Source: a virus
DNA: 30,470 nt
Reading direction: 5' to 3' (one strand)
Virus record (IMG/VR): IMGVR_UViG_3300017752_000091
Location: 1-30,470 of that record
Notes under the pieces: model-generated
Databases searched by the model: none
Seen by the model: only the letters and a program-made list of their open reading frames with translations
Told to the model about the DNA's origin: nothing
Made by a program: the position numbers and the translations under genes
Shown here: positions 1 to 30,470 of the stretch, piece by piece
How the letters are laid out: every line of letters starts with the position of its first letter
Numbering within the stretch: the first letter of the stretch is position 1

Positions 1-123
1 GAAATTTAACGTAGATCACAATAAAGCCAAACGCTAACATAAGGATCGGTCTCCAAGATCTTTGTAGCCAATTACCTTTCGCTTCTGCAATTATTATATC
101 CGTTTGCATTTTCTGGAGTTCCA
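1..123. repeat. Direct terminal repeat, left copy
   Basis: These 123 bases are identical to 30348-30470. The repeat lies inside the holin reading frame, and joining the ends restores an unbroken holin gene. The simplest reading is a circular molecule written with an overlap, or a circularly permuted phage genome assembled into a closed contig; it is not a transposon end. A true fixed terminal repeat cannot be excluded from sequence alone. Confidence 0.95.
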
Positions 124-18517: not shown

Positions 18518-19672
18518 TTACCGAATAGCGTACTTACCATAGTTCGGTCTGCTTAGTTTGTTGATAACAGAGTAACGCAGGGCGTCACAGGCGTGATTGA
18601 ATTTATCTATTGGCTTGTTGGTTAGGTCTCCGTTTTTATCTTCAATATACTTGTAGTTTCGCATCTCCTTAATCACATTACTACTACTTTCTGTTATATG
18701 AAGTTTGTATCTACGTAACATATCGATCCCTTGATTGATTGCACCTTTACTTGTAGGTTTTACATTCCACCCCATTCGATGTATTTCCTCGATACTTTTT
18801 GGCTCGGCACTATCTGCGTATACTTCATCACGTCGATCAAGTTTTAACCTGTCAAACTCGTGTGCTATATCTTGGTTTGTCATACCAGTACGGTATATTA
18901 ATTCATTCACATATATGTTTTGATCTTGCATATACGTTGCTACCATAGCTGTTGGATCATTACTAAAACCAAAATCTAAGCCATAGCTAATTAACTTTGC
19001 AGTTTCTGGTATGTTTGGGACTGTACTAAATGAAAACACTAAACTTCTACTCTGACCTCGTTCTCCTAAACCATATATACGCCAGTAGTTTTCGTCAGTT
19101 TCTTTTAGACGTTCTATTTCCTCGACTATTGGCTGTGGCAAGAACGGATTGTCTTTGTACGTGGTTTTATAAAACGAGCAGTCGTTTCTTGTTAGTACTT
19201 TGTCATATATCCAGTGAAACTCGTCCGACGGATTGTAGTCAACTATGATCTGTTCTCCTGTTCTGAAGATCAACTGTTGCCAGTCCTCGAAATTTAATTC
19301 ATTTGCTTCATTAACAAATAGAAGATCACGCTTCCTACCTCTGATCTTTTGTGGCTGATCAAGTGATATGAACTCAACAGTGTTTGTGCCGATCTTATAT
19401 TCACTACTGGTCTTTGCGTGTACATCTTCAGTATACATATTATGATCACGAAGGATCTGAAAAAAGTCACGCATTACAGTACCCCTAACGGCAGGGAATG
19501 ATTTACGTACTATTGTAATCATTTTACCTTCGTTCTTTTGACAATAGGCAAATATGATCCACAACAAAATGTTATACGTCTTTCCAGATCGTGTCCCACC
19601 TTGTTCTACTATGATCTTATTCCTGTCCGTCTGTAAGTGACGGAACACTTTGTTCGTGTGTAATACTTTCAA
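18518..19672 (-). CDS. terL: Terminase large subunit
   Basis: This 384-residue protein is the packaging motor and nuclease (Terminase_3/6 class). Walker A GTRSGKT is at 26-32, Walker B LLFVNEAN at 117-124 with E122 as catalytic acid, and a coupling region near 145-175. The RNase H-like nuclease has its acids at D233 (GLDFGFSNDP), D287 (YADSAEP) and D363 (HACDALRY). The length is slightly short but complete. No ATG is available before Walker A; the start is TTG at 19672, inside the small subunit gene, with 56 bases of overlap. Confidence 0.95.
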   Translation of the reverse strand: MKVLHTNKVFRHLQTDRNKIIVEQGGTRSGKTYNILLWIIFAYCQKNEGKMITIVRKSFPAVRGTVMRDFFQILRDHNMYTEDVHAKTSSEYKIGTNTVEFISLDQPQKIRGRKRDLLFVNEANELNFEDWQQLIFRTGEQIIVDYNPSDEFHWIYDKVLTRNDCSFYKTTYKDNPFLPQPIVEEIERLKETDENYWRIYGLGERGQSRSLVFSFSTVPNIPETAKLISYGLDFGFSNDPTAMVATYMQDQNIYVNELIYRTGMTNQDIAHEFDRLKLDRRDEVYADSAEPKSIEEIHRMGWNVKPTSKGAINQGIDMLRRYKLHITESSSNVIKEMRNYKYIEDKNGDLTNKPIDKFNHACDALRYSVINKLSRPNYGKYAIR

Positions 19673-20006
19673 GTTGATCTGCTGTATCTATAATTCGTAC
19701 TTCAAATAATTGCTGTCCGTCTGCACCTGTTATTTCTTGGCGTTCTACATAACCTCGTTTCTTACCTTTGGTTTTTAAGTAGAATAATAACTCTGCTGTC
19801 TTTCCTTCACGTATTGCATTTAACAATTTCATTTCTGCTAGATCTAAATTACGTTCTTCAATATCCTTGCACGTTTGTTGAAAATCTGCATCTTGCTTTA
19901 ACCAATTGTAATACGTCTGACGTGATATGCCAGACGCTTCACAACTGATGCTGATATTACCTAAAGACAATTTAAAGTTTTCTAAAAATTTTTCTTTGCT
20001 TTTCAT
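19617..20006 (-). CDS. terS: Terminase small subunit
   Basis: The 129-residue protein has an N-terminal helix-turn-helix (LGNISISCEASGISRQTYYN, with WLKQDADF after it) typical of small terminases of the phBC6A51/Terminase_2 type, followed by a helical oligomerisation region (about 45-85) and a C-terminal tail (ITGADGQQLFEVRII). It recognises the packaging start on phage DNA and hands it to the large subunit encoded next. Start by ATGA overlap with the zinc ribbon gene. Confidence 0.85.
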   Translation of the reverse strand: MKSKEKFLENFKLSLGNISISCEASGISRQTYYNWLKQDADFQQTCKDIEERNLDLAEMKLLNAIREGKTAELLFYLKTKGKKRGYVERQEITGADGQQLFEVRIIDTADQLESITHEQSVPSLTDGQE

Positions 20007-20170
20007 TTTATATTTATTTCTGGAAGTCCGTTTTTGTTTTGCGTAATTTCTAGATCAAAATCAAAACCACAATTCTCACATATGAAATTATCCCTATGGT
20101 TTTCGTGCCAACATACTTGACAGCATTTTACTTGACGTGATCTCATAAACATTTTTTTTGACGCACCCAT
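20003..20170 (-). CDS. Small zinc-ribbon protein (55 aa)
   Basis: I start at the ATG at 20170, one base after the stop of the RarA-like gene; a longer frame to 20341 would lie inside that gene. The protein has two CxxC pairs, CQVC and CENC, with the text between typical of a rubredoxin-like zinc ribbon, then an acidic end (DFDLEITQNKNG). It probably binds zinc and DNA or protein. Position between the RarA-like and terminase small subunit genes, with an ATGA link to the latter, suggests a role in packaging or late transcription; this is inference. Confidence 0.75.
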   Translation of the reverse strand: MGASKKMFMRSRQVKCCQVCWHENHRDNFICENCGFDFDLEITQNKNGLPEINIK

Positions 20171-20171
20171 A

Positions 20172-20807
20172 TTACTGACTGAATAGATTAGAGTTTTCTG
20201 CCTTGTACTTGCCCATATCTTTTGTGTTTTTGTGATACACATTGTCTGGATCATAACCAGTGATAGGCACTTTCTTGTTTGCGTAATCTTGTATGTATTG
20301 AGTAAAGAAGTCGGCATACGGATCGTCAACGTCAGAAACATTGTTTAGTTTGCTACCTTCGTCAAGAAAAAATTGTAACGACCTACCCATTTTTTTGCCA
20401 CGACGTGTATTTGTGTCAAGTGCATAATCTGGGATATCTGGACGATACGAAGATTTACAAGCAACCATTTTTGCATTGTCGACAATACGTGATTTCTTGG
20501 ATCTTGACATAAGTAAAATTGCGTGAACAATTGGAATGATACCTTCCTCGTGATTTTTGGCTGATATGATTAACCAGTTTTGATATAATGCTTGTACTTG
20601 TACAGCTACATTGTTGTCGGCTAGACCGATATCTTCTGAAGCAATAATAAGCATACGTTTCCACAGATATTGAGCATAGCCACTACCTGCTAGTTCTGTG
20701 CCGAAGAATAAAGCATCTGCTTCTACACCTCGACGAATTGATTTTTGAAATGCACTACTGCACTCAAAGAAGTCATAATTTTTGCGTGTTAAAATTTGAT
20801 AAGACAT
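20172..20807 (-). CDS. RarA/MgsA C-terminal-like protein without the ATPase domain
   Basis: The 211-residue protein aligns by eye with the C-terminal part of the AAA+ recombination protein RarA (MgsA): SSAFQKSIRRGVEADALFFG, then YLWKRMLIIASEDIGLAD, match the E. coli SALHKSV...IASEDVGNAD region. The AAA+ ATPase with Walker A is absent, so it is a stand-alone form. RarA acts at stalled forks with SSB; a free C-terminal domain might tie phage DNA to SSB or to the host enzyme. It is the first gene after the promoter at 20834-20873 and is co-transcribed with the terminase genes. I recall stand-alone versions in other marine phages, without tested function. Confidence 0.75.
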   Translation of the reverse strand: MSYQILTRKNYDFFECSSAFQKSIRRGVEADALFFGTELAGSGYAQYLWKRMLIIASEDIGLADNNVAVQVQALYQNWLIISAKNHEEGIIPIVHAILLMSRSKKSRIVDNAKMVACKSSYRPDIPDYALDTNTRRGKKMGRSLQFFLDEGSKLNNVSDVDDPYADFFTQYIQDYANKKVPITGYDPDNVYHKNTKDMGKYKAENSNLFSQ

Positions 20808-20874: not shown

Positions 20875-21459
20875 TTAGTCAAAATTACTAAATATATGAC
20901 TAGGCATCTTTGGAGGGTTTTTGACCATTACTAAAATAGTGACGTCGTATTGTTGTTTTTCAGATTTTACAATATGATACTCTGGCAAAAGGTTTATTAT
21001 ATCTTGCTTATTCAGATCTTGAAAATGATACTTATTGAAGTGCGTAGATTTTTTGTTTGGATAACTCAATACTATCAACTCTGGATAGTGCCTGTGTATA
21101 AATTCCTTATATACGTTTAGATCTTTTAAATGTTCAATCGTTTCTAAACTAACTACACAATCTATTTTATTGATCAAATTGATTTTTTCTAAACTATCTA
21201 CTAAAAAAGATGTTTTGGGTACGTTAAAATTCTTACTAGCTGATTTAATTGTTTCGGCATCTACATCTGCACCTATTACAAGATCTACATCTGGGACATT
21301 TGACATTAAGTATGTTCCATATCCTACACCACAAGCAACGTCAAGTACTGTTCCATATAGATATCTTTTGACTAACTGGTAACGTTCTATGTGATTTTGA
21401 AACCTAATTGTTTCTAGTGTTTCTTCTATTTGATCTTTGCCTAAATATATTCTCTCCAT
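20875..21459 (-). CDS. Class I SAM-dependent methyltransferase
   Basis: The 194-residue protein shows motif I as VLDVACGVGYGTYLM (39-52), the acidic residue of motif II at D65 (GADVD) and a motif IV region CVVSLETIEHLKD (101-113). The SLETIEHL form is that of Methyltransf_11/23 enzymes acting on small molecules or sugars and differs from the DPPY of DNA adenine or cytosine-N4 methylases. Next to two glycosyltransferases it may methylate a sugar added to DNA or to a virion protein. It overlaps the upstream glycosyltransferase by 19 bases. Confidence 0.82.
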   Translation of the reverse strand: MERIYLGKDQIEETLETIRFQNHIERYQLVKRYLYGTVLDVACGVGYGTYLMSNVPDVDLVIGADVDAETIKSASKNFNVPKTSFLVDSLEKINLINKIDCVVSLETIEHLKDLNVYKEFIHRHYPELIVLSYPNKKSTHFNKYHFQDLNKQDIINLLPEYHIVKSEKQQYDVTILVMVKNPPKMPSHIFSNFD

Positions 21460-22199
21460 TTCAATTTTAGTTTTTTGACGTCTACGTCTGTTTTATCACT
21501 ATCCTTATAAGTTCCAAACTGTACATTATTATCTGGAAACAATTTCTGAAGTTCTACTATTGTTTTTCTAGTCATTTCGTTCCTGTCGTAACTTTGAAGT
21601 CCACCTGCATTTTTATGAGCAACTGCATTTTCATAACCACCCATATATCGCCAACATACATATCCTTGATTTACGCAATTCAAAGTCAATACTATATCGT
21701 CTAACAACTCGACATTTTCTGGCATCGTGTGGATCTTTGGACGGAATATGTGATTGCCATATATTATTTTGTTTTTAGAAAACTTGTCATCGTGCTTCCA
21801 GTAAAGGAATGGCATAGGTTTTGAGACGCTTACTGCACCTAAGTGGGGGTTTTGTTCAAAAGCATCTTTAACGTCTTTATATATACTTAAAAACGCCTTG
21901 TGTGCGTCGATCTTCTTGCTGTGTTTCTTAGTTTTGAAAGACATATCGTCGTCAACTCTGTAAACTAGATCATAATTATTGCTGTTAGCGTAATCTATTA
22001 TACACTGCACTGTTTCTCTATATGAACTTGCTACAATAGGAACTATGTTTTTTGTCACTTGACCATAATACATTTCTTGTTCTTCACGCACAAAAATTTT
22101 CCACTCTATATCTTCTGGAAGTTTTTTAAGCCAACACAGCGTAGTTTTTTCTATATCGTATGGTCTATTATATGACGGAACAGCTATTAATGTTTTCAT
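21441..22199 (-). CDS. GT-A glycosyltransferase (TAGT-like), second copy
   Basis: The 252-residue protein opens with KTLIAVPSYNRPYDI, followed by a DDD motif at 83-85 (VYRVDDDMSF) that binds the metal and nucleotide sugar, and SKPMPFLYWKHDD and VCWRYMGGYENA in the second half. The layout matches the TET-associated glycosyltransferases (TAGT) known from phages. The ATG at 22199 follows the previous stop with a one-base overlap (TGATG); an in-frame TTG at 22202 is less likely. Its acceptor is unknown. It differs from the other copy in size and C-terminus, so they may act in sequence. Confidence 0.78.
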   Translation of the reverse strand: MKTLIAVPSYNRPYDIEKTTLCWLKKLPEDIEWKIFVREEQEMYYGQVTKNIVPIVASSYRETVQCIIDYANSNNYDLVYRVDDDMSFKTKKHSKKIDAHKAFLSIYKDVKDAFEQNPHLGAVSVSKPMPFLYWKHDDKFSKNKIIYGNHIFRPKIHTMPENVELLDDIVLTLNCVNQGYVCWRYMGGYENAVAHKNAGGLQSYDRNEMTRKTIVELQKLFPDNNVQFGTYKDSDKTDVDVKKLKLKWREYI

Positions 22200-22948
22200 C
22201 AAAAGGGGAATTTACAAGTACGTTCTCCTTCACGAATTTTGCCTTTGCCACTTGTAGGTTTTTTAATAGTAATTGCATTTCCAAAAGTTTTACGCAACTT
22301 TAATGTAGTCAACAACATATCTTCTTTTGTCCTGTCTAAGTTACAACCACCCTCTGCAGAAAAATTGCCAATAGATATAAACGAGTATCTTTGATCAATA
22401 TACATATACCTATTTTTGTATACATTCAAACAAGACATATAATGATCTTCTCCTTCAGAATAAGTTACGTCATATGCTAGATTGTGTCCTTTGAGATATC
22501 CAGTATATGAAGCGTTAAGATATCCTGTAAAACCGAATGGGGTGTGACTTATATAATGTAGTGGCTGTCTCAAATTTACAAAGCCAAACATCTTAGCGTT
22601 TAGATCTTGTGCCATATCTGCTGCCCTTTGTATTATATCACGTACCTCATCTGGATCGGTAACTAGATATTCTTCTCCTTCTTCAATCCAATTCATACGT
22701 ACACTCGTAATGTCATCGTCGATCATAAATACGTTTTCAAATTCCTCTAAGATGAATTGCCTACTACCTGTTATACCTTTAACGTGATCTGGCTCTGCAA
22801 TAACTGTACACTCTGGGTTATGTTTTTCGTATTCCTCTACCTCTTTTTTTGGCACTACTAAAATAAGATCTTCAATAAGTTTTTTAGTGATCACATTTTC
22901 TGCTCTACCTTTGCTTGGCGTTACTATCCTTACTATCTGTCTTTCCAT
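22199..22948 (-). CDS. GT-A glycosyltransferase (TAGT-like), first copy
   Basis: The 249-residue protein starts IVRIVTPSKGRAENVITKK, then LVVPKKEVEEYEKHNPECT, the N-terminal Rossmann half with the GRAE-type loop, G-SRQFIL at 61-66 and FMIDDDI at 74-80 with the DDD metal motif. This is the TAGT pattern (TET-associated glycosyltransferase), a family defined from phage operons that sugar-modify oxidised pyrimidines. The C-terminus is short and ends CKFPF. No TET/JBP oxygenase or hydroxymethylase is present in the genome, so the substrate may be a protein, a base modified by a host enzyme, or an unusual base. Confidence 0.8.
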   Translation of the reverse strand: MERQIVRIVTPSKGRAENVITKKLIEDLILVVPKKEVEEYEKHNPECTVIAEPDHVKGITGSRQFILEEFENVFMIDDDITSVRMNWIEEGEEYLVTDPDEVRDIIQRAADMAQDLNAKMFGFVNLRQPLHYISHTPFGFTGYLNASYTGYLKGHNLAYDVTYSEGEDHYMSCLNVYKNRYMYIDQRYSFISIGNFSAEGGCNLDRTKEDMLLTTLKLRKTFGNAITIKKPTSGKGKIREGERTCKFPF

Positions 22949-23547
22949 AACTTCTGAAATTCTTTAACTGTTATAACGCTTGTTTCTTTGATCCGTTCTG
23001 TTTTGTAGTCACGTGCCTTTTTTAATTTGAGTACGTTTCTTAGCCAGTTTTGATCCATTTCATTATCACAGAAGATCATAACAGCAGTGTACCCTTCACT
23101 GAATTTTGGAACGATAGGCAGTTCTGCGTTTGTATCGTCAACTTTATAAAATTCTTCTTCAAACTGATCCATAAAGAAACCTAACTCTTTTTCTTCCATA
23201 CCCATTTTCAAAAGAAACTCTTTTTCGTATTGATTAGCCAAAAGATCAACGTCCCAGTCCCCAAAAGAATTATTGTCTTTAATTATAAACTCTGACTTCT
23301 GTTCAGTATTCCAACCTTTAGCTACCACTACTGGTACTTCAGTCATTCCTAATTGCCTACACGCTTTTAGACGCATATTACCACCTAGCACCATATTGTT
23401 TTCGTCAACTACAATGGGACGTGTTTGTAACATTTCTGGAAAGTCCTTAATACTTCTAACTAATTTACTAAACCTTTGTGATTTGATTGTTCTTGGATTG
23501 AGTGGGTTGCCTTGCAACTCTGCTACATTTCTATTTTCTACTTTCAT
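22933..23547 (-). CDS. ParB-like nuclease-domain protein
   Basis: The 204-residue protein has a ParB/Srx-type N-terminal domain: LQGNPLNPRTI at 11-21, RPIVVDENNMVLGGNMRLKA at 43-62, and VPVVVAKGW at 71-79. FIIKDNNSFGDWDVDLLANQ follows, a block also seen in ParB domains attached to phage and prophage DNA methylases. These domains bind CTP or act as nucleases or DNA-modification partners; plasmid segregation is unlikely here as no ParA exists. It is encoded just before the two glycosyltransferases, with overlap of 16 bases, and is probably part of a DNA modification group. Confidence 0.85.
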   Translation of the reverse strand: MKVENRNVAELQGNPLNPRTIKSQRFSKLVRSIKDFPEMLQTRPIVVDENNMVLGGNMRLKACRQLGMTEVPVVVAKGWNTEQKSEFIIKDNNSFGDWDVDLLANQYEKEFLLKMGMEEKELGFFMDQFEEEFYKVDDTNAELPIVPKFSEGYTAVMIFCDNEMDQNWLRNVLKLKKARDYKTERIKETSVITVKEFQKLWKDR

Positions 23548-23942
23548 ATATAATTTTCATAAATAATTTCATAAACGTTTTCTACTATTTCACTATTCAT
23601 ATGTTTAATGTTCTCCCTTATAAATTCTTTACGTAAAGGATCTGTTGCTGTTGATCGATCACTAGCTAAAACTAACATTCTCATTTCCAGAAGTGACGGA
23701 TTGTATTTCTCATACATATCGTAATTTCTTACGGAGTGTAATATTGTTGCGTGGTGCATTGATTTGCCTTTACCTTGATATATTCTTTTTATTGCGTAGT
23801 ACGTTAAACCACACACTCGCCTATATATGTGATTTAACATAGCACGTGCTTCGACTACTTCACGTTTTCTGGAGTTTTCAAATACATCAACCCCAGTTAC
23901 TTTGCACACGCTTTCAGCTATTCTTTTTTGTGCTAAATTCAT
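23544..23942 (-). CDS. DnaA domain IV-like protein
   Basis: The 132-residue protein has SRKREVVEARAMLNHIYRR at 24-42 and HHATILHSVRNYD at 63-75, the two recognisable parts of the DnaA C-terminal helix-turn-helix (the basic R-x-R start and the (D/H)HxTVLH helix). The DnaA ATPase domain is missing. Domain IV binds DnaA-box-like sites, so this is a candidate origin-binding protein or a competitor for host DnaA boxes. It is linked by ATGA to the RecE-like gene and to the ParB-like gene. The intergenic iterons at 30100-30173 are one possible target, which is inference. Confidence 0.8.
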   Translation of the reverse strand: MNLAQKRIAESVCKVTGVDVFENSRKREVVEARAMLNHIYRRVCGLTYYAIKRIYQGKGKSMHHATILHSVRNYDMYEKYNPSLLEMRMLVLASDRSTATDPLRKEFIRENIKHMNSEIVENVYEIIYENYI

Positions 23943-30212: not shown

Positions 30213-30470
30213 AAGATTTTTTTTGCGTATAAGATTGCATCATTTTTTCTCCTGTTCTTCCTATCACATATCCACCTATACCTAACTGAAGTAAATTCCA
30301 AAACTCGTTTTCTAACTCTGGTATTTTCAAGTCAAATAATGGTGCTAGAAATTTAACGTAGATCACAATAAAGCCAAACGCTAACATAAGGATCGGTCTC
30401 CAAGATCTTTGTAGCCAATTACCTTTCGCTTCTGCAATTATTATATCCGTTTGCATTTTCTGGAGTTCCA
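30211..30470 (-). CDS. Holin, three-TM type (C-terminal part; gene joins 259-1)
   Basis: This is the C-terminal part of the 131-residue holin that starts at 259. The family is the GTA_holin_3TM type (PF11351): a hydrophobic helix RPILMLAFGFIVIYVKFL (about residues 69-87) followed by a second helix with LLQLGIGGYVIGRTGEKMM, whose GGYxxGRxxEK is the family signature. It permeabilises the inner membrane to release the amidase. The bases 30348-30470 repeat 1-123, so part of the gene appears twice in the window. Confidence 0.85.
   Translation of the reverse strand, partial: ELQKMQTDIIIAEAKGNWLQRSWRPILMLAFGFIVIYVKFLAPLFDLKIPELENEFWNLLQLGIGGYVIGRTGEKMMQSYTQKKS
30348..30470. repeat. Direct terminal repeat, right copy
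   Basis: This is the second copy of the 123 bases at 1-123, identical throughout by eye. See the left copy. Confidence 0.95.

Follow-up and report, generated by a model that had tools for sequence, protein, structure and literature searches.

A conserved ParB-TAGT cassette in a small tailed phage genome and its predicted role in DNA glycosylation

The viral record IMGVR_UViG_3300017752_000091, which we analysed over its whole length of 30,470 nucleotides (hereafter, the window), carries a gene cassette built around a ParB-like protein and a TAGT-family glycosyltransferase (GT1). This cassette is real, conserved and horizontally spread, and we judge it quite probable, on comparative sequence grounds, that it carries out ParB-coupled glycosylation of DNA. 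From these comparisons we infer the DNA acceptor, the docking of the enzyme, the accessory roles and the protective function alike. Our main argument that the glycosyltransferase acts on DNA is that the gene slot beside ParB is elsewhere occupied by DNA-modifying enzymes.

The source of the sequence is a tailed phage with a small genome. Its first 123 bp are identical to its last 123 bp (1-123 versus 30348-30470), and on the basis of this exact terminal direct repeat we regard the record as a complete genome of approximately 30.35 kb, which makes the absence of a gene meaningful. The database labels the record linear despite these identical ends. The nearest annotated terminases found by tblastn belong to Bacteroides phages, and prophage loci with a GT1-like gene occur in Bacteroidales MAGs, suggesting that the host group is probably Bacteroidota.

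An initial annotation had described a run of four overlapping genes, encoding a ParB-like protein, two TAGT-like glycosyltransferases and a SAM methyltransferase (MT). The open reading frame coordinates confirm this run, with all four genes on the minus strand and with overlaps of 16 bp (ParB/GT1), 4 bp (GT1/GT2) and 19 bp (GT2/MT). The arrangement is kept in related contigs and thus is not a chance reading. The four genes are part of a larger cassette, located immediately upstream of the terminase genes, whose probable fifth member directly follows MT and encodes a stand-alone C-terminal domain of MgsA/RarA (MgsA_C). The features of the window are as follows.

1..123, plus strand: terminal direct repeat, with an exact copy at 30348-30470
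18518..19672, minus strand: TerL, large terminase subunit, marking the position of the slot (tblastn to annotated phage TerL, 37-39% identity)
19617..20006, minus strand: TerS, small terminase subunit, marking the position of the slot (phrog_4044, 4e-10)
20172..20807, minus strand: MgsA_C, stand-alone MgsA/RarA C-terminal domain, 211 aa (PF12002, 2e-11)
20875..21459, minus strand: MT, class I SAM-dependent methyltransferase (Methyltransf_25/11, above cut-off)
21441..22202, minus strand: GT2, divergent TAGT relative with a TTG start (phrog_842, 3e-11; profile-profile comparison with the GT1 family)
22199..22948, minus strand: GT1, TAGT-family GT-A glycosyltransferase (PF20691, above cut-off; DDD motif at 77-79; ED and GGC motifs conserved)
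22933..23547, minus strand: ParB-like protein, stand-alone, 204 aa (PF02195, 3e-5; phrog_17622, 3e-37; solved ParB/Spo0J/Noc chains, to 6e-12)
23544..23942, minus strand: Bac_DnaA_C-like protein overlapping the ParB start (PF08299, 4e-6, below cut-off)

The last of these is the upstream neighbour that is kept among close relatives (11 loci).

Profile searches upheld the four family assignments of the initial annotation, at differing strengths. GT1 is a true member of the TAGT family, scoring 50.6 bits against a cut-off of 27.5 (PF20691; E 3e-13) and matching phrog_842 at 4e-22, with residues D77-D79, D168 and G200-G201 invariant in 44 homologs. It has the GT-A fold and a DXD-type metal motif. 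The AF2 model (pLDDT 89, pTM 0.88) finds TAGTs as its nearest viral models in Foldseek (TM 0.77-0.78), together with a beta-glucosyl-HMC-alpha-glucosyltransferase. This similarity of a predicted structure to relatives of phage DNA glucosyltransferases was counted in favour of DNA glycosylation. A sequence search of GT1 against solved structures gave nothing useful; the nearest solved structures of the model are GT-A enzymes with non-DNA acceptors (teichoic-acid, collagen and O-antigen glycosyltransferases). The TAGT fold does not fix the acceptor, because PDB enzymes that share it have teichoic acid, proteins or glycans as acceptors. GT2 has no match in Pfam, and is instead tied to the TAGTs by its PHROG match and by profile-profile comparison with the GT1 family (99%, E 4e-18). 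No match to the alpha/beta-GT families appeared among the scanned cassette genes in Pfam or PHROG.

The ParB-like protein falls slightly below the cut-off of PF02195 (24.4 versus 26.3 bits, E 3e-5), but it matches phrog_17622 (3e-37) and many ParB PHROGs, and its sequence profile retrieves solved ParB/Spo0J/Noc chains from the PDB down to 6e-12. The quality of its structural model is moderate (pLDDT 79, pTM 0.55, with a low-scoring linker); the top Foldseek matches of the N-terminal domain are the CTPases ParB, Noc and KorB, in agreement with the sequence profile. By both domain and fold the protein belongs to the ParB/Srx superfamily, and it comprises a ParB/Noc-type N-domain (approximately residues 1-118) and a C-terminal tail (119-204). 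The cassette and its neighbours, the subset of open reading frames that we scanned, yielded no ParA-type match and no ParB HTH match.

When IMG/VR was searched with profiles of GT1 and of ParB, approximately 160 loci were returned. ParB lies immediately upstream of the glycosyltransferase in 65/69, and at most two genes upstream in 67/69, of those GT loci (69 of 81) that have at least 700 nt of upstream sequence, in a locus set that was first ranked by GT1 similarity and so favours the same context. Wherever the related loci can be read, the terminase genes come next. The pairing spans two deep clades of the glycosyltransferase tree and phages of Bacteroidota, Streptococcus and Microbacterium. 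In this tree the branches that lead to the TET- and HMase-linked TAGTs are long, and for that reason we draw no conclusion on the ancestral state.

Whether related phages keep all four genes together had been posed as a check, and the answer is divided. ParB and GT1 stay together as above; GT2 is confined to closer relatives of the window and diverges fast (24-48% identity to the GT2 of relatives, with a near-identical exception in L003), with no tblastn match in named phages, and MT is sporadic, its homologs occurring only within GT loci and at varying positions (L003, L019, L020 and L079). From this distribution we take ParB and GT1 as the constant core, and the remainder looks like sugar tailoring. 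A second type of methyltransferase is present in loci such as L039, and a third group of GT loci has PIG-L and WbqC genes ahead of ParB. The recurrence of such sugar-tailoring genes beside the core (PIG-L, WbqC, UDP-glucose dehydrogenase) was counted in favour of DNA glycosylation.

MT is a generic class I enzyme that reaches no equivalog in NCBIfam. We rejected the idea that it is a CmoA-type Cx-SAM synthase, since it matches no CmoA equivalog there and has no CmoX-type partner, and we propose that it is a sporadic accessory for sugar tailoring. MgsA_C, which the initial annotation had missed, is a steadier partner than MT: it follows the glycosyltransferase in 37/81 GT loci versus 0/74 ParB loci without one, and of the two main ParB-GT clades only one has it. 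PF12002 covers its residues 7-122, and its NCBIfam match corresponds to approximately residues 255-381 of the full-length protein; the AAA+ ATPase domain of MgsA/RarA is missing, and hence this is not a full MgsA/RarA. The domain is not exclusive to the cassette, because Arthrobacter phage KellEzio has a stand-alone MgsA_C with neither ParB nor a glycosyltransferase nearby. Bacillus phage SP-15 had been considered as a modified-DNA phage with MgsA_C and was dropped, as the matched gene of 1290 bp is apparently a full-length RarA-type gene. Its annotation names a clamp loader resembling a recombination protein, and it lies far from the SP-15 sugar cluster.

Related cassettes are also found in named phages. 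In Microbacterium cluster EC phages, which are cultured and lytic, adjacent genes (84-87 in Metamorphoo) encode ParB, a glycosyltransferase, UDP-glucose dehydrogenase and MgsA_C. The Metamorphoo glycosyltransferase is a relative of GT1 (hhalign 99.3%, E 2e-20), and the gene annotated there as ‘AAA-ATPase’ is MgsA_C (hhalign 99.8%, E 1e-27). This glycosyltransferase is present in 56 Microbacterium records, and the part of PMC7302621 consulted makes no link between these phage genes and ParB or DNA. The recurrence of the ParB-TAGT-MgsA_C triad in these unrelated phages was also counted for DNA glycosylation. Streptococcus prophage Javan291 has a minimal form, with ParB and TAGT before the terminase and no other recognised modification gene.

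To survey the slot itself, we took ParB-profile loci that lack a GT1-type gene and classed the gene after ParB or the C-terminal part fused to it. ParB is fused to a DNA methyltransferase-like part in 34 clustered loci, as classed by sequence. A TET_JBP gene occupies the slot in L095, L146, L015 (HTVC112P), L115, L116 and L160, and TET_JBP together with a glycosyltransferase does so in L121. The slot of L146 also holds an amino acid:DNA transferase (ADDT), and that of L116 a P-loop kinase adjoining TET. Elsewhere, Mom (2e-47) fills the slot in L162 and an ABC-ATPase-GNAT protein fills it in L014 (Leptospira phage LE3), and L090 and L096 have a canonical TAGT of PF20691 there. The partners of this ParB family thus are recognised or predicted DNA-modifying enzymes of varied chemistries.

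The two parts of ParB behave differently with respect to these partners. Among 37 ParBs compared by partner class, the N-domain (residues 1-118) has a mean identity of 0.40 within a class and 0.43 between classes, whereas the tail has 0.33 within and 0.12 between, a class effect reached by 0/2000 label permutations; the loci are not independent, near-identical contigs being among them. The effect persists when the comparison is restricted to ParBs whose N-domain is at least 0.5 identical to that of the window. The N-domain of the window ParB shares 50-57% identity with ParBs of TET and Mom cassettes and 25-36% with most of the distant ParBs of GT cassettes, whereas its tail shares 38-53% with the ParBs of that distant set and 9-17% with the TET and Mom tails. 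Across 21 GT loci, glycosyltransferase identity follows the tail once the N-domain is removed (partial r 0.85, Mantel 0/1000), versus a partial r of -0.17 with the N-domain once the tail is removed. We read the tail as a putative docking part for the partner enzyme. Since tail and glycosyltransferase adjoin on the DNA, physical linkage in recombination can yield part of this covariation.

The initial annotation had seen no oxygenase, hydroxymethylase or thymidylate synthase-like gene, and HMM searches bear this out across the complete genome, which has no match to TET_JBP (PF12851), to thymidylate synthase-type enzymes (PF00303, a family that takes in the known hydroxymethylases and 5-hodCMP synthase) or to C5-cytosine methyltransferases (PF00145). 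On these searches we rejected the presence of a hidden gene of any of the three kinds. PF12851 and PF00303 are also absent from 17 other GT-bearing IMG/VR records, Javan291 and Metamorphoo, and PF00145 from most of the other GT-bearing records examined. The fact that no known handle (TS-type hydroxylation, TET or the C5-methyltransferase/CmoX type) is encoded was counted against DNA glycosylation.

The acceptor of the sugars had been left open between DNA and a virion protein. That caution was justified, and the comparative data now favour DNA, because DNA-modifying enzymes elsewhere use the same slot and the tail of ParB varies with its partner enzyme. It is improbable, in our assessment, that the glycosyltransferases instead modify a protein of the virion or a polymer of the host surface, with ParB beside them in a moron slot by the terminase but unrelated to them. 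The non-DNA acceptors of the nearest solved structures speak for such a role, as does the placement of a canonical TAGT among head genes in some phages (Vibrio 1.076.O); the breadth of the ParB-GT pairing over two deep clades and three phage groups, the company of DNA-modifying enzymes in the slot and the partner-specific tail all speak against it. Still more doubtful is a role of ParB in phage partition or transcription, with DNA-modification genes recruited to its locus but not functionally coupled to it. The N-domain of ParB does resemble ParB, Noc and KorB, but the domain stands alone with a tail that is exchanged along with the partner enzyme, the one-chain fusions to DNA methyltransferases recur in 34 clustered loci, and no ParA-type match is found among the scanned neighbours.

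If DNA is the acceptor, the ParB N-domain would load onto or slide along phage DNA, and the tail would dock GT1 and bring it to an acceptor there. GT2 would probably extend or vary the glycan and MT would probably methylate the sugar, and MgsA_C may link the complex to DNA that is gapped or being replicated. Virion DNA marked with sugar in this way would withstand the nucleases of the host. Two routes to such a product can be considered. In the conventional one, a sub-case of DNA glycosylation that differs on the route and not on the acceptor, an unrecognised enzyme of phage or host hydroxylates the base, and GT1 and GT2 then glycosylate it as in T-even and TET phages. We entertain this route tentatively: TAGT relatives use 5hmC-derived bases in T-even phages (PMC13216743), P12024L pairs TET with a TAGT, and several open reading frames of the window have no family, but the absence of PF12851 and PF00303 across all the genomes listed above, the absence of PF00145 in the window and most others, and the minimal pair in Javan291 count against it. 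Alternatively, and rather unlikely on present sequence comparisons, a ParB-loaded TAGT would transfer its sugar straight to a canonical base, or to a handle supplied by a partner (MgsA_C or MT, for example), and none of the known hydroxylation routes would be needed. The sugar-on-DNA systems in the literature that we surveyed all begin from a hydroxylated pyrimidine.

We file the cassette as a variant of phage DNA hypermodification outside the TET-TAGT and T-even systems, because the handle-making enzymes of those systems were searched for and not found. Nonlabens phage P12024L, a marine flavophage in which TET is paired with a TAGT and a DNA methyltransferase, exemplifies the TET/JBP-TAGT operons; the window likewise has a TAGT in a small tailed phage with a methyltransferase nearby, but it lacks TET/JBP, has ParB and MgsA_C as partners and uses a slot upstream of the terminase. 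GT1 and the enzyme that adds the second sugar in T-even glucosylation (alpha-GT, beta-GT and TAGT) are members of one GT-A family, the TAGTs. Unlike that system, the window has no TS-type dCMP hydroxymethylase and no alpha/beta-GT match in the scanned cassette genes, and the cassette is a minimal one of two to five genes. TAGTs without alpha/beta-GT occur in 288/753 phage genomes and have been called potentially novel transferases (PMC13216743). GT1 resembles these solitary enzymes, and a ParB partner, a slot and tail covariation are described for it here.

ParBc proteins also lie beside the DNA carboxymethyltransferase CmoX or are fused to DNA methyltransferases, with the function of ParB given as unknown (PMC12783734). 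The window shares this juxtaposition of ParB and a DNA-modifying enzyme, but the partner is a sugar transferase and the genome has no C5-methyltransferase. In the Dpd system, DpdB is a ParB-like ATPase that assists base insertion by DpdA (PMC12839542), and so a ParB-superfamily protein again partners a base-modifying enzyme; ours, however, is a phage cassette with another enzyme, and no DpdA or DpdC homolog is found among its scanned genes. The TAGT study (PMC13216743) contains 0 occurrences of ParB. We found no ParB-TAGT link in the literature surveyed, whose scope excluded two papers that may note one: the founding TAGT paper of 2013, reportedly on TET/JBP-TAGT systems, and a 2024 study said to concern virus-encoded DNA glycosyltransferases.

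A TAGT cassette that is widespread and occurs in complete genomes without the known handle makers implies either new chemistry or a handle-making enzyme of a new kind. That these ParBs combine a common N-domain with partner-specific tails offers a concrete explanation for why ParBc domains adjoin phage DNA-modifying enzymes. If the direct route were true, ParB-like domains would be general, exchangeable DNA-targeting subunits that are plugged into modifying enzymes through a partner-specific tail. Microbacterium cluster EC phages, which are lytic and in culture, have the same triad, and so the question is directly testable.

The IMG/VR record, labelled 'linear', is a complete genome, because it carries an exact 123-bp terminal direct repeat (window 1-123 = 30348-30470). 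Related phage loci (L-numbers; coordinates are within each locus) hold the following gene arrangements.

L039:3209-5087 (relatives L038-L045), two ParB-domain genes side by side before the glycosyltransferase (GT)
L146:3905-6872, ParB, TET/JBP oxygenase, amino acid:DNA transferase (ADDT) and a 262-aa gene, in the same slot
L116:319-2164 and L115:132-3019, ParB, then a P-loop/dNK-like kinase and TET/JBP
L014:3962-5583 (Leptospira phage LE3), L097 and L105, ParB, then an ABC-ATPase-GNAT fusion, adjoining terminase in cultured Leptospira phages
L036:3286-4586, L027:8622-9359, L029:7989-9364 and L025:6787-7485, ParB-GT1 preceded by genes for a PIG-L-type deacetylase, WbqC or both
L010:11508-12161 (also L011, L022), third GT-A-like gene after GT2 within the cassette (weak Glycos_transf_2)

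In the L039 group, the longer ParB-domain gene is the first of the pair and usually encodes ~409 aa. The L146 set is a possible hypermodification cassette, and the very small phages of L116 and L115 possibly use a hydroxymethyl-DNA kinase route. Another TET/JBP oxygenase (PF12851, 1e-29), flanked by ParB and an FkbM methyltransferase, is Pelagibacter phage HTVC112P gp18 (L015:4627-5535), annotated as 'DnaJ chaperone / SNF2'.

Microbacterium phage Metamorphoo gene 87 (L173:4684-5304), annotated as 'AAA-ATPase', matches solely the MgsA/RarA C-terminal domain and has no ATPase part. In the window, an ORF (20003-20341, minus strand) overlaps the MgsA_C gene, and its C-terminal part is a zinc ribbon of small size, with a CxxC..CxxC pattern and a weak match to PF12773; the true gene is probably short, starting further inside the ORF.

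ParB with the ABC-ATPase-GNAT fusion in the Leptospira phages is a candidate for a DNA modification that is not known to have been described. The PIG-L-type and WbqC genes are probable sugar-tailoring genes, and their presence suggests an amino sugar in the phages that carry them.
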